Below are positions 2,701 through 7,391 of a DNA stretch of 7,419 nt, one piece after another. The stretch is from the NCBI GenBank assembly GCA_017629415.1, contig JAGBXG010000278.1, positions 1 through 7,419 on the forward strand, in the 5' to 3' direction. A model generated the notes under the pieces. That model saw only the letters and a list, made by a program, of their open reading frames with translations. It ran no database searches and was not told the DNA's origin. Every line of letters starts with the position of its first letter. Position 1 is the stretch's first letter. The position numbers and the translations under genes are program-made. The stretch comes from Pseudomonadota bacterium. GTDB taxonomy: Bacteria > Myxococcota > Bradymonadia > UBA4248.

Positions 2701-3441
2701 CTAATCACATGTATAATCCACACCCAAATCAAATTCCTCACTGAGACGTTTCCAGCCATCATTTGTGGTTATCATCTTGCAATAGTTCTTTCGAGATAAC
2801 CCGGAAAAAAGAAACATTCTGTCTGCATCTTCAACATTTGAAACATTCCAAGAACTTAAATCTTGATCAAAAGACTCGGCCATTTCAAACATACTCATCA
2901 TATCTCTGACATTTGAAACATCCCAAGAACTTAAATCCTGGTCAAAAGACACGGCCATGTAAAACATAGAAGACATATCCATCACATTGGATACATTCCA
3001 AGAACTTAAATCCTGGTCAAAAGACTCGGCCATGTAAAACATAGAAGACATATCCATCACATTAGATACATTCCAAGAACTTAAATCTTGGTCAAAAGAC
3101 CCGGCCATGTAAAACATAGAAGACATATCCATCACATTGGAAACATCCCAATCGCCGATATTCTGGTTAAACTCTCCCGCAAATGAAAACATAGAAGCCA
3201 TATCTATCACATTGGAAACATCCCAATTGCCGATATCTTGATTGAATAGCATACTTATCTCAAATAAATCACTCATATCTGTAATCTGAGAGGTATCCCA
3301 ATTTGTGACATTTTTACCCCAAATGATTGCATCAATTAATTCATCTCTAGCCTCTTCTGCTTCGAATGCTTCACACCCCAGCATCCCCAAAGCCAAAGAT
3401 ACACATGCTGCCATTTCCATCCATTTCAAACATTTTTTCAT
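2701..3441 (-). CDS. BspA-like DUF285-repeat lipoprotein
   Basis: 246-residue protein starting at the ATG at 3441. That start is preferred over an in-frame one at 3504 because AGGGG (plus-strand 3449-3453) sits 7 nt before it and a lipoprotein signal follows at once: basic MKK, hydrophobic segment, then LGMLGC with Cys23 as the likely lipidated residue. The -3 position is Met, which is less typical of a lipobox, and Glu9 precedes the hydrophobic run. Tryptophans at 48, 73, 98, 123, 148, 173 and 198 mark seven units of exactly 25 residues of type W[ND]VSNVxDMxxMFxxAxxFDQDLSS, the DUF285 leucine-rich-like repeat of bacterial surface proteins. The tail carries Cys221 ('NYC') and Cys245 ('YTC'), a likely disulfide cap. 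It probably sits on the outside of a membrane and binds a ligand or host molecule; the partner cannot be read from the sequence. It ends 69 nt from the shared terminator. Confidence 0.88.
   Translation of the reverse strand: MKKCLKWMEMAACVSLALGMLGCEAFEAEEARDELIDAIIWGKNVTNWDTSQITDMSDLFEISMLFNQDIGNWDVSNVIDMASMFSFAGEFNQNIGDWDVSNVMDMSSMFYMAGSFDQDLSSWNVSNVMDMSSMFYMAESFDQDLSSWNVSNVMDMSSMFYMAVSFDQDLSSWDVSNVRDMMSMFEMAESFDQDLSSWNVSNVEDADRMFLFSGLSRKNYCKMITTNDGWKRLSEEFDLGVDYTCD
2776..3300 (-). repeat. 75-bp tandem repeats encoding the DUF285 units
   Basis: Seven units of exactly 75 bp without indels; the Trp codon recurs on the plus strand as CCA at 2848, 2923, 2998, 3073, 3148, 3223 and 3298. The units at 2926-3000 and 3001-3075 differ at only 2 of 75 bases, and the next (3076-3150) differs from its neighbour at 5. 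The outer units are more diverged, a pattern that fits recent internal duplication by slippage or unequal recombination. Confidence 0.9.
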
Positions 3442-3534
3442 GAGATATCCCCTACACTTCTCTAGATTGAAAAAGCGAAGACACAAACAATGCCTTCTCA
3501 ACAAACAGCAAATAAAACAGCAAATATCATACCA

Positions 3535-4055: not shown

Positions 4056-4898
4056 TTAGCTTCTCTTTTCCCAGGAATCCATCAGAGATGGATCCGAAAA
4101 TGATATGCGGATAACATAACCAGTAAACGACCTTAACCACGGAAATAGTTCGCGGCCGTCGTAAACGTCAGCAGAAAAACGCGCAGAATACGGACTGATG
4201 CGCTCTATTGTGCCGCAGCGCTTTTCAGATTCGAGCCTCGCCAGCACAGGGTGATTGGGATGCGGAGCCATAATCTCCATCTCGACGTGAACGGTTTGAG
4301 GCACATTCCGTGTCGAAACACCCCACAGATGCAGAGATTCAGCTGCAAACCGTTCGCGGCATTGCGCATATTGTGTTTCAGAAGCGTTATGGGGTTCCAC
4401 TGGCTTCACTTCCTCAATGCGATCAATTCGTATCGCAGCAAAGTCGCCCGACTCGAGGTAATACCCCATCAGATAGCGACGCCCTGTACGTGCGCTCGCA
4501 TAAATTTTGACAGGGACAACGTCGGCGGCAAGCCAGCATTTGGATGTCGTCTGTGGCGGTTGTACGACATGGCCATTATGATCAATCAATCGATAATTCG
4601 CGGGTATTTGATATTGTACATCATGACTGCGCACCCAATGATAAAGCTTCACGCTCACCGGCGTCTGATTGCGAATGCATGTCAATATCGACTCCAATAT
4701 CTCCGCATCCATGACGTGATACAAAAAACGATACCGGAATCTCAGCGGTGACTGAGGTAACACCTTGAATTTGGCGCGCTCCCGTTCAATCATATAATGC
4801 CCGGCGACGCCCAATGAATCAACCTCGGCAAAGAATCGGAATAAATCGATATAAGGGGTTAGCTCAAATTCTGGCTTCACCAAGCGATACTCAAACAA
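4056..4898 (-). CDS. C-terminal fragment of the WYL regulator (WYL and WCX domains)
   Basis: 280 codons if read from a TTG at 4898 (residue 1). No ribosome binding site favours that TTG; the frame continues upstream to 'LGIIERQIVKK' before a TGA. Residues 20-40 ('FRFFAEVDSLGVAGHYMIER') link to the WYL domain (about 65-167: 'AEILESILTCIRNQTPVSVK', 'RRYLMGYYLESGDFAAIRID', 'RIEEVKPV'). The WCX extension (about 200-275) shows 'LARLESEKRCGTIERI', 'FSADVYDGRELFPWLRSFTG'. WYL domains in characterised regulators bind nucleic-acid ligands and control defence or DNA-damage genes; the ligand here is unknown. A loop of about 30 residues (about 92-125) between the first strands looks longer than I expect. 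It is best read as the second half of the frameshifted gene. Confidence 0.75.
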   Translation of the reverse strand: MFEYRLVKPEFELTPYIDLFRFFAEVDSLGVAGHYMIERERAKFKVLPQSPLRFRYRFLYHVMDAEILESILTCIRNQTPVSVKLYHWVRSHDVQYQIPANYRLIDHNGHVVQPPQTTSKCWLAADVVPVKIYASARTGRRYLMGYYLESGDFAAIRIDRIEEVKPVEPHNASETQYAQCRERFAAESLHLWGVSTRNVPQTVHVEMEIMAPHPNHPVLARLESEKRCGTIERISPYSARFSADVYDGRELFPWLRSFTGYVIRISFSDPSLMDSWEKRS

Positions 4899-5335
4899 TT
4901 TTTTAACGATTTGACGTTCAATGATACCGAGTTTTCATATTCTTTCAGCACAGCCCAAAGGCGCTTATTATCTACTGGAACTGCGCGCTTTAGGTCTGAC
5001 ACGGTTTTATAATTTCCATCTTCCAGCGCAAAAAGCAGCCCAAAGTGTGCCGCCAGTTCCGAATCAATAACCTTTTTCGATTGCAGAAACGCAGCCACTG
5101 GATTCTCATCCAGATCACGGCTATCCATAGTCAAAAACTGTCTCATCTCGCTTTTGTATCCACGTTTGCATAAATATGATTTAAGCAACTGCTCCATCAA
5201 CGTGCGGAACTGGCGATAGGCACTCTGGTTTTCTTCCATCAACATTCTATATGAAATCCCAAGCATGCAGAATTCGCGCAAAAACTGCCTGCACCGATTG
5301 AGTTTTTCGAACTTGAACTCAATATTATACGCCAT
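4877..5335 (-). CDS. N-terminal fragment of the WYL regulator (winged-helix part)
   Basis: 152 codons as it stands. The family start 'MAYNIEFKFEKLNRCRQFLREFCMLG' class is recognisable (helical 'LNRCRQFLREFCMLGISYR'), followed by a segment of 'RQFLTMDSRDLDENPVAAFL' type known to me from clostridial WYL regulators, and then 'FGLLFALEDGNYKTVSDLKR' and 'DNKRLWAVLKEYE', the helices of a winged-helix DNA-binding domain. The last 18 residues (NSVSLNVKSLKNCLSIAW) are out of frame relative to the family. Alone it would lack the wing and the WYL sensor, so it is unlikely to work as a normal regulator. Translation probably couples to the upstream gene because start and stop overlap. Confidence 0.7.
   Translation of the reverse strand: MAYNIEFKFEKLNRCRQFLREFCMLGISYRMLMEENQSAYRQFRTLMEQLLKSYLCKRGYKSEMRQFLTMDSRDLDENPVAAFLQSKKVIDSELAAHFGLLFALEDGNYKTVSDLKRAVPVDNKRLWAVLKEYENSVSLNVKSLKNCLSIAW
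4932..4935 (-). other. Frameshift position in the WYL regulator
   Basis: The minus strand reads GAA TAT GAA AAC TCG GTA in the upstream frame and AAA CTC GGT ATC ATT in the downstream frame. Insertion of one A in the A4 run joins EYE to KLGII. The heptamer TGAAAAC is not a canonical X-XXY-YYZ slippery site because re-pairing at the P site would be poor. Confidence 0.75.
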
Positions 5336-7391
5336 GATGATTCCTCCATTTGGGAAGCGAAGTCATCGAAACAGCCCCTGCAAACATATTATCCGACAAT
5401 TCCAGAGCTGATACATTCCAGTTATCCAGAATTTGCCGATAAGAAATGGCGCCGCATAGCATTCCAGCCATGGATTTAACATGGGATACATCCCAGGCAT
5501 CCAGCGGCTGATTGAACGATTCCGCCATTTTAAACATATCCGTCATATCCCAGACGTTTGACACATTCCACGACCCAAGGGAATGGTTAAATGACGAGGC
5601 AAATGCAAACATTCCCGCCATATTCTGCACATTCGATACATCCCAGGCATCCAGCGGCTGATCGAATTCTGTTGCCCTTTCAAACATCATGGCCATATTC
5701 TTCACATTTGAAACGTTCCAATGTTCCACTGGATCATTCAATTTTATACAATTATAAAACATACATTCCATCGTTTCAACACGAGACAGATCCGGTGCAT
5801 CCATAGCAGGAATTCGAATCATACACGCACCAGCAAACATATAAGCCATCGAACGCCATGCAATATCCCCCCATTGGCATACCTCCGACCAATAATAATC
5901 ATCTGCATCGGGTGCATAGTTCGATATCTCCGATAATTCGAGATTTCCATGTTTTCCGTCGCGAAGCAAGATGTGTCCCACATTTCCGCGCATGGCAATG
6001 GTATAAATCCCTGGCTTTTCATAGACATGGCTCAAATCACCGGTTTGGCATATTTTTTCGTAAATACCGTCCCCGTCGCAGTCTGCTTCATAAAGCAGAT
6101 GATAATCTTCTCCATAAGAAAAGACATCTGTTTCCGGCTCTCTGCATATCGCATGGTGAAGACAACATATCCGCACTTCCGTATTTGGCCGCGTCACGAC
6201 GACTTTCATAACAAAAGGTCGCATTTTTTCAAAAGAAACTATTTCTTGTAAATTCGCATTTGTCCTGTCTGAGCAATCGTTCTGATTCACGATGGTATGA
6301 ACTGAAGCGGCCTCAAATCTATTTTGTAGTTCCTTTTGCTTTTTAAACCGAAGTTGGACTTTCCACGCCAGTTCGTTCGGTGACTCGACACACACATTTT
6401 TCCCCAGCGATAATATATCATTCACGATCGATTCCGAATCCACTCGCCAGTCATAATAAAATTCCAAACGATAGCGTTTCTCTTCTTCCGAAACGCACAC
6501 AACATCTCGTTTTTGATAAGAAGCAAAACAATTCAATGACCGAGATAATGCATCATGCTTATCTGTAATTGACAAACAAGCAACGCGATTCTTTTTGGGT
6601 TTAGCTGACTTCTCTGACTTTCGCAATTCGGCTCGTTCATGCTCAACTTCGGTCATGCGTTTGGCATTACATAACAACAAAGAACAACGAGGTTTCCAGA
6701 TTTCCGCGCACGCCAAAGCATCTGCAAGTTTGCACGACACGATGGAACGCATTGGAATGCGTATGCATTTTGAACTTACCCCCTTTTTGCCGTGATAATC
6801 ACATTCTGCATGTATAAACATGGCATCAAGCCTGCTGTCATATTCGAGATGAACAGGCCTGCAGATAGCCCATGCCGGTGTATTTGTATATTTTAACCAT
6901 CCTGAATTTTCATGCTCTCGCCAAACCAAAGCCAGTCTTTGATTTTCTTTGCATGCACGATATACCATTCGAAAATGTTCAATATAATCGCAGTCCATCC
7001 ACGGATCAGATACTGCCGGTCTGTCAAAATAAACATAATCTTCCAGATGATACAAGGGTTCGACATCATCCAACCTCGTAAAGGATACATCGAACAGTTT
7101 AACCCTTGGATCGTTCAAAATGGCCTTAATCCATTGCTTTTCCAGCTTTGTCAGCCCATACTCCGGCATGGTGCGATGGTTATTTGCCCCATCCTCTTGC
7201 ATCAAATGGAGTTCTCCAAACAGTTCCGTAACCTCTTTGGATTCTATCAGCTCTTTGAAAGAGTGTTTAAGGAATTTTGGTAACTCCAGATTATCAATCG
7301 CCTCATCCATCGGCCCCGGTTCCCGAAGTAACTGTCGAATCAGCCTTTCACACGTATAAATATAGATGCTGTATATTTTATGAAAGATCAT
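5325..7391 (-). CDS. WYL regulator fused to PKD-like and DUF285 repeat region
   Basis: 688 residues; AAGGA (plus 7399-7403) lies 7 nt before the ATG at 7391, and the N-terminal 'IFHKIYSIYIYTCERLIRQL' fits the family start. Residues 1-110 match the helical N-terminal part of clostridial-type WYL proteins, with the hallmark 'LTKLEKQWIKAILNDPR' near 80-96. A WYL-like region follows (about 150-225: 'RLALVWRE', 'GWLKYTN', 'CRPVHLEYDSRLDAMFIHAE'), a Lys/Glu-rich linker, and a WCX region (about 270-365: 'RYRLEFYYDWR', 'ILSLGKNVCVESPNELAWKV'). Relatives I know end about here. This protein continues with a PKD-like segment (about 391-475, 'DCDGDGIYEK', 'HVYEKPGIYTIAM'), a cap ('QWGDIAWRSM', Trp507) and five 25-residue DUF285 units (Trp558, 583, 608, 633, 658). 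No signal peptide or membrane segment is seen, so it should be cytoplasmic, unusual for DUF285. It is probably co-transcribed with the downstream WYL gene. I see no intact DNA-binding helix pair in it, so it may act through that partner. Confidence 0.88.
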   Translation of the reverse strand: MIFHKIYSIYIYTCERLIRQLLREPGPMDEAIDNLELPKFLKHSFKELIESKEVTELFGELHLMQEDGANNHRTMPEYGLTKLEKQWIKAILNDPRVKLFDVSFTRLDDVEPLYHLEDYVYFDRPAVSDPWMDCDYIEHFRMVYRACKENQRLALVWREHENSGWLKYTNTPAWAICRPVHLEYDSRLDAMFIHAECDYHGKKGVSSKCIRIPMRSIVSCKLADALACAEIWKPRCSLLLCNAKRMTEVEHERAELRKSEKSAKPKKNRVACLSITDKHDALSRSLNCFASYQKRDVVCVSEEEKRYRLEFYYDWRVDSESIVNDILSLGKNVCVESPNELAWKVQLRFKKQKELQNRFEAASVHTIVNQNDCSDRTNANLQEIVSFEKMRPFVMKVVVTRPNTEVRICCLHHAICREPETDVFSYGEDYHLLYEADCDGDGIYEKICQTGDLSHVYEKPGIYTIAMRGNVGHILLRDGKHGNLELSEISNYAPDADDYYWSEVCQWGDIAWRSMAYMFAGACMIRIPAMDAPDLSRVETMECMFYNCIKLNDPVEHWNVSNVKNMAMMFERATEFDQPLDAWDVSNVQNMAGMFAFASSFNHSLGSWNVSNVWDMTDMFKMAESFNQPLDAWDVSHVKSMAGMLCGAISYRQILDNWNVSALELSDNMFAGAVSMTSLPKWRNHHGV
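5343..5347 (-). promoter_or_regulatory. Ribosome binding site of the second WYL gene
   Basis: GGAGG on the minus strand lies 7 nt before the ATG at 5335, inside the last codons of the upstream WYL-DUF285 gene. It fixes the start and implies translational coupling. Confidence 0.75.
5346..5720 (-). repeat. Five 75-bp DUF285 units at the 3' end of the fusion gene
   Basis: Trp codons (CCA on the plus strand) recur at exactly 75-bp steps: 5418, 5493, 5568, 5643 and 5718. The units have the same period as in the lipoprotein gene but are more diverged from each other, with consensus W[DN]VSNVxxMxxMFxxAxxFNQPLDA. The last unit (WNVSALELSDNMFAGAVSM) is degenerate and truncated. Confidence 0.88.

Follow-up and report, generated by a model that had tools for sequence, protein, structure and literature searches.

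A WYL-WCX regulator gene joined to a DUF285 repeat array in uncultured Myxococcota-type bacteria

DUF285 repeats have been described mostly from surface or secreted proteins. What, then, is such an array doing at the end of a gene whose first half resembles a transcription regulator? The question is raised by a stretch of 7,419 nucleotides (the window; contig JAGBXG010000278.1 of assembly GCA_017629415.1, a Pseudomonadota bacterium placed by GTDB in Myxococcota, Bradymonadia, UBA4248), in which a single uninterrupted frame of 688 amino acids (5325..7391, minus strand; fused A in the following) consists of a WYL-WCX module, a linker, a PKD-like segment, and five DUF285 units. A sequence-only reading of the window had described this frame as a clostridial-type WYL/WCX regulator carrying five unexported DUF285 units; the frame and the number of units stand, fold comparison and relatives bear out the regulator type, and the lack of export holds under the hydrophobicity rule given below. 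We propose, at a probability of roughly 0.5 and by analogy with PafBC, an actinobacterial WYL heterodimer that acts as a DNA-damage activator, that the gene is subunit A of a PafBC-like two-gene WYL regulator that gained a cytoplasmic DUF285 arm. The sequence-only reading also knew of no described WYL-DUF285 protein, and no paper in the literature we searched combined "WYL domain" with "DUF285"; WYL plus DUF285 is a new architecture of a known regulator kind.

The regulator half was assigned by fold comparison, in which residues 91-359 of the model fall with PafBC, DriD, CapW, and BrxR as nearest folds; PafBC is also the only PDB sequence match to fused A. The structure model used was built from a 58-row alignment (an earlier 6-row model had a mean predicted local distance difference test score, or pLDDT, of 55) and predicts the WYL-WCX order, a Sm-like WYL barrel followed by a ferredoxin-like WCX domain. 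The fold search barely bears on the C-terminal half, and the fold assignment is limited to the regulator half. The profile check that the sequence-only reading had proposed for this half gave a divided answer, with a PADLOC WYL match at residues 129-346 and no match to Pfam WYL or WCX. The literal WYL string is absent from fused A; read from the alignment, the triad position is M-F-I in the window and F-R-L in most of the unfused rows displayed. Two relatives that carry F-R-L (L068 and L069) pass the Pfam WYL cut-off, so the W-Y-L triad is not decisive. N-terminal helices are modelled at residues 2-60, and the alignment of full-length DriD rows begins at model residue 2-9; no helix-turn-helix (HTH) profile match was found in A.

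The array matches DUF285 in Pfam (expectation value, E, of 5.9e-55) and TIGR02167 (E 1.5e-10), and its DNA contains two direct-repeat families, one of 111 bases at 73% and one of 21 bases at 71-81%. Export was judged here and below by a simple hydropathy rule, not by a signal-peptide predictor. By this rule fused A has no export signal or membrane segment, the top mean being 0.99 for 19-residue stretches and, within the first 150 residues, 0.84 for 13-residue stretches, and a surface or lipoprotein location was rejected because no hydrophobic segment appears under this rule. Because related bacteria keep the joined gene intact, the array of fused A probably acts inside the cell. Fused A thus shares the DUF285 profile match with DUF285/PARCEL/BspA-like surface proteins, but differs from them in having no export signal or anchor, a fixed repeat number, and a joined regulator.

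The relatives of the A module indicate that it belongs to a pair. A scan of 84,980 species, one genome each, with a single peptide pattern gave 111 confirmed relatives, of which 80 were kept, and a second WYL gene, B, adjoins A in all 80 loci. Seventy-six of these are unfused, with B before A; in one more (L139) B again precedes A, which is cut by the contig end; the remaining three are fused and have A before B. The unfused loci, mostly clostridial, have adjacent genes of the A and B families found in the fused locus; counted from its first start codon, their A is 298-417 aa long and has no cassette, in agreement with the earlier statement that known WYL proteins of this type end after WCX. 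In the window, the open reading frames (ORFs) 5335-4877 and 4898-4056, in overlapping frames, together make up the B gene, WYL-B; the related genomes G001, G002, G003, and G005 carry WYL-B unbroken, with a length of 426-432 aa. The window and these four genomes share an 11-base overlap of A and B. B is weakly similar to winged HTH families (HxlR, E 0.039; SmtB, E 0.04; ArsR-type, E 0.008, in the B of L068). Two adjacent WYL-WCX genes are likewise found in the PafBC-type pair, which, unlike fused A, has no PKD-like segment and DUF285 array. DriD, BrxR, and CapW are homodimeric WYL regulators, from which fused A differs by its two paired genes and its C-terminal array. The covered sections of a 2025 paper describe WYL factors other than PafBC as homodimers (PMC11804915).

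Gain of the array was accompanied by changes in the WYL domain. We compared seven fused rows with six unfused rows of the same lineage and 45 rows from outside it, the latter mostly clostridial and including two titled Ruminobacter and Aeromonadales. Position 216 is R in 37 of the 45 outside rows and in five of the six unfused lineage rows, and S or G in all seven fused rows; at position 213, 42 of the 45 outside rows have N and all seven fused rows have P; and R211 occurs in every fused row versus 1/45 outside. The stretch K-D-D-K-F-R-L, found in most unfused rows displayed, is R-L-D-A-M-F-I in the window. Besides gaining the array, fused A has probably undergone a change of its ligand surface, since residues conserved in unfused A are lost in the fused rows. 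The ligand arginines of PafBC are R211/R214 and R201/R204, according to the covered part of the same paper (PMC11804915), and by a weak alignment fused A lacks both arginines of the PafBC R-x-x-R. The B genes of two aligned fused loci (G001 and G005) read IRIDRI and IRIDRV at a motif, R-x-D-R, that may be the counterpart of these arginines.

In the proposed regulator, the helical N-terminal part of A would serve DNA, the Sm-like WYL domain a ligand, and the WCX domain pairing, as in PafBC; A and B would pair through their WCX domains, as PafB does with PafC, and B would hold a nucleic-acid or nucleotide input. Within a single clade of uncultured bacteria of Myxococcota type, A would have acquired the PKD-like and DUF285 cassette after WCX and, in the same clade, altered residues conserved in unfused A. 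The array would then be a fixed cytoplasmic arm, probably binding protein, that may add or replace an input or bring the regulator to a partner.

The cassette is conserved in sequence, repeat number, and register. A protein search, matching the domain order that the sequence-only reading had suggested looking for, returned five clusters that match the whole query at 55, 59, 81, 81, and 96% identity, the last comprising 407 sequences; the search was limited by length, so unfused homologues could not appear and it does not measure the rarity of unfused forms. Of the six pairs formed by the window, G001, G002, and G003, five give ratios of nonsynonymous to synonymous substitution rates (dN/dS) of 0.25-0.30 in the WYL half and 0.19-0.24 in the cassette, which places both halves of the fused gene under purifying selection in these five. 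In the diverged clusters P0004 and P0005 the cassette is better conserved (67 and 65% identity) than the WYL half (55 and 52%), the linker being only 19 and 20% identical. All six proteins aligned have five DUF285 units with zero gaps across 188 columns, and in 14 of 15 comparisons with P0003, P0004, and P0005 the best match of a unit is the unit of the same number. Repeat arrays of fixed unit number can form rigid interfaces, and the fixed repeat number would also fit an oligomerisation or stability arm that enlarges A-B assemblies or joins A to A while the WYL domains remain the sole sensor. The residues lost in fused A suggest, however, that the input has changed too, and we regard this alternative as rather unlikely.

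The same measurements bear on whether the cassette could be a tolerated, functionless passenger, left by the insertion of a repeat-coding element at the 3' end of a regulator gene, as the sequence-only reading had allowed in proposing a fusion with no retained function. The lineage is rich in DUF285 (341 Pfam matches in eight genomes), the linker evolves fast, and DUF285/PARCEL sequences are reported to be mobile in the covered part of a 2010 paper (PMC2996958). However, purifying selection, an identity to P0004 and P0005 that exceeds that of the WYL half, the fixed repeat number and register, and conservation over five clusters disfavour such a passenger, and no inverted repeat of at least 14 bases was found in 5325-5900, a scan that shorter or diverged palindromes could escape. 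We therefore consider a passenger improbable.

Fused A is accompanied in its lineage by other DUF285 proteins that appear to lack export signals. A survey of 80 stretches from eight family genomes, picked from the listed part of the 341 Pfam matches and from the A-gene search, gave 87 DUF285 ORFs, 22 of them open-ended or starting inside repeats; of the other 65, 56 contain a hydrophobic segment within their first 150 residues and nine lack one. By our judgement five of the nine (L182, L184, L209, L233, and L241) look truly unexported, while three (L171, L212, and L232) have doubtful starts and one, L238, encodes a protein kinase whose membrane segment lies inside the chain. L182 (583-1905, plus strand) encodes a LigA-like BRCT domain followed by an MRPF-type PKD-like and DUF285 cassette, with no export signal by the hydropathy rule, and four clusters (P0006-P0009) share this BRCT-DUF285 arrangement. 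Like fused A, these proteins have a cytoplasmic-type head and then an MRPF-type cassette, the head being LigA-like BRCT whereas that of fused A is WYL. No paper in the literature searched combined "DUF285" with "BRCT"; BRCT is listed among the domains combined with WYL in the covered part of an earlier paper (PMC4012209). According to the covered sections of the 2010 PARCEL paper, ORFs without membrane-targeting sequences may be pseudogenes, cytoplasmic proteins, or annotation artefacts, and it was not known which (PMC2996958).

This parallel family, the changed WYL strand of the fused clade, and the lack of an HTH profile match in A would also be consistent with A being no longer a transcription regulator but a scaffold or repair-associated protein. 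Against this, the 11-base overlap of A and B recurs in the window, G001, G002, G003, and G005, and five of six pairs show purifying selection on the WYL-WCX frame; we find a scaffold quite doubtful. Several further proteins stand beside these families. P0010-P0013 contain a very similar BRCT module (73-78% identity), with ankyrin repeats in P0011 and without DUF285 in three proteins of 244-327 aa, so that by sequence comparison one BRCT head is borne on different arrays. L184:1328-3541 (minus strand), L209:250-2448 (plus), and L233:1901-2876 (plus) encode stand-alone DUF285 proteins with the MRPF motif almost at the start and no signal-like segment. The kinase at L238:2205-4733 (minus) has a membrane segment and then PKD-like and DUF285 parts, and its DUF285 is a probable outside sensor.

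That the fusion is an assembly chimera or annotation error, which the metagenome-assembled origin of the relatives and the frameshift in the neighbouring B might suggest, is ruled out for practical purposes, since orthologues in three other metagenome-assembled genomes and five protein clusters, one of 407 sequences, carry the same join. Full or near-full copies occur in three of six genus genomes (G001, G003, and, from residue 2, G002), and G005 has the C-terminal part at a contig edge. In that genome (L010/L049, G005:C106) the DUF285 C-terminal part follows a different upstream sequence and represents a truncated allele or an assembly end. The three fused records in the species scan are from uncultured Myxococcales bacterium (two) and a Proteobacteria bacterium from water-buffalo rectum (one). 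In a tree of the 58 A modules (midpoint root, quick search), the seven fused rows form one clade on a long branch, with a Shimodaira-Hasegawa-like approximate likelihood ratio test (SH-aLRT) value of 100; this clade groups with four unfused lineage rows at SH-aLRT 93, below the 95 mark, and two A-like rows of the genus (L043 and L045) are placed among the outside rows, mostly Bacillota. This placement, together with a distribution of A matches over only five of the 57 class genomes, every one from a single family, suggests that the A module may have been transferred from Clostridia. In G003 and G005, separate contigs carry the distant A-like genes (L043 and L045) and B-like genes (L051 and L053). 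A viral origin was rejected: 56 stretches of viral contigs fitted the peptide pattern, with no relative among them. None of 104 phage-record matches covers more than 80% of the query, and among the ten matches listed all start at residue 425 or later, within the cassette, which argued against a phage origin.

The unfused pair has neighbours of its own. Of the 73 loci outside the lineage, 47 have rtcB downstream of the pair, always on the same strand (47/47) and within 2 kb in 31; these rtcB-linked loci fall within L067-L138. A DUF2828/DUF7788 gene is present in 40 of the 73 (downstream in 37), RlaP in five, and a Thg1-like gene in four. RtcB, RlaP, and Thg1 act on RNA ends, so the ancestral or unfused pair is probably a switch of an RNA-repair operon. 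We met no formal name for the pair in literature searches and no description of it in the parts covered of the literature on WYL, RtcB, and RNA repair; an earlier publication of a WYL-rtcB link is possible.

Several observations weigh against the reading of fused A as a PafBC-like subunit. DUF285 is its only Pfam match, and across the 58 aligned rows at E ≤0.01 Pfam finds WCX in 49 and WYL in 18, the window row having neither; this is likely a sensitivity limit, because the unfused paralogue L041, 30-31% identical, exceeds the Pfam WCX cut-off. The DNA-binding part of A is a medium-confidence helical model only. Pairing of A and B is proposed by analogy, as PafBC and its orthologues are called the only heterodimeric WYL proteins reported in the covered part of the 2025 paper (PMC11804915). 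The stretch in which the alignment puts positions 213 and 216 opposite the PafBC R-x-x-R is sub-threshold, at 3.7 bits, and a looser R-x-D-R-type pattern is absent in 48 of 80 B ORFs, so the motif is not general to B. WYL-B is frameshifted in the window, a true mutation or an assembly error alike being possible. In the closest pair, the window and G001, dN/dS is 0.55 for the WYL half (25 changes), and 0.13 for the cassette (19 changes); the former value counts here. No A match was found in the genus genomes G004 and G006. Lastly, the seven lineage loci show no rtcB, DUF2828/DUF7788, RlaP, or Thg1 neighbours, five of them reaching 3.7-6.0 kb past the pair and two (L060 and L065) 0.1-0.3 kb; rtcB is on other contigs than the A genes in G002-G008, and G001 has no rtcB match.

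Table 1. Features of the fused gene and its partner in the window
Feature	Position	Strand	Basis or remark
Fused gene A, 688 aa: WYL-WCX regulator subunit A (proposed), linker, PKD-like segment, DUF285 array	5325..7391	-	
Putative subunit-A regulator module, residues 1-362 (N-terminal helices, WYL barrel, WCX)	6306..7391	-	PADLOC WYL 129-346; fold comparison; unfused relatives stop about there
WYL Sm-like barrel, residues 134-225 (helix and five predicted strands)	6717..6992	-	Structure model, fold comparison; residues conserved in unfused A replaced
WCX ferredoxin-like domain, residues 265-340 (beta-alpha-beta-beta-alpha-beta)	6372..6599	-	Structure model, fold comparison
Fast-evolving linker, residues 363-384	6240..6305	-	Low identity to P0004/P0005; pLDDT <50 over 358-389
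PKD-like beta-rich segment, residues 385-500, MRPF close to its start	5892..6239	-	Sequence comparison and structure model
DUF285 region, residues 501-688, five 25-residue units	5328..5891	-	Profile matches; unit count identical in 6/6 aligned proteins
WYL-B N-terminal piece, 152 aa	4877..5335	-	Shares 11 bases with 3' end of A; reading frame disrupted in window
WYL-B C-terminal piece, 280 aa, with WYL domain	4056..4898	-	PADLOC WYL E 3.2e-8; Pfam WYL E 0.0027, below Pfam cut-off

Around the pair, the window encodes a further DUF285 protein with a lipobox-like N-terminus (2701-3504, minus strand), which follows WYL-B at a distance of 0.55 kb and in the same orientation; no DUF285 match was found downstream of B in L061 and L062. 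In G001, a DUF285 protein without a signal-like segment (L060:3726-4745, plus strand) is encoded two genes ahead of the fused gene. ORFs of 316 aa (L060:4884-5834, plus; G001) and 236 aa (L062:279-989, plus; G003) are also found upstream of the fused gene; neither has a match in Pfam, PADLOC, or NCBIfam, and no conserved upstream partner was found. On this locus PADLOC gave WYL alone, for A and the 280-aa piece of B, and nothing for the 152-aa piece; with only PDC-S48 in addition, on the BRCT part of L182, a link to defence was rejected.

The sequence-only reading thus had the domains, the fusion, and the lack of export right, and overlooked the pair with WYL-B, the swapped gene order, the rtcB context, the changed WYL residues, and the other unexported DUF285 proteins. 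A broader view, which we offer tentatively and hold to be rather unlikely as a whole, is that in this lineage intracellular DUF285 interaction arms are borne on nucleic-acid-repair heads, namely a WYL regulator with ligand-site residues exchanged for a protein-binding arm and a LigA-like BRCT; on this view the pair would form a second class of WYL heterodimer, ancestrally an rtcB RNA-repair switch and now reading a protein signal. The unfused pair ahead of rtcB is a candidate RNA-repair regulator and a candidate second WYL heterodimer. As the fusion to a cytoplasmic regulator is conserved and selected and the BRCT fusion runs parallel to it, the two argue that cytoplasmic DUF285 proteins are real, and the fused cassette offers a defined bait for finding DUF285 binding partners.

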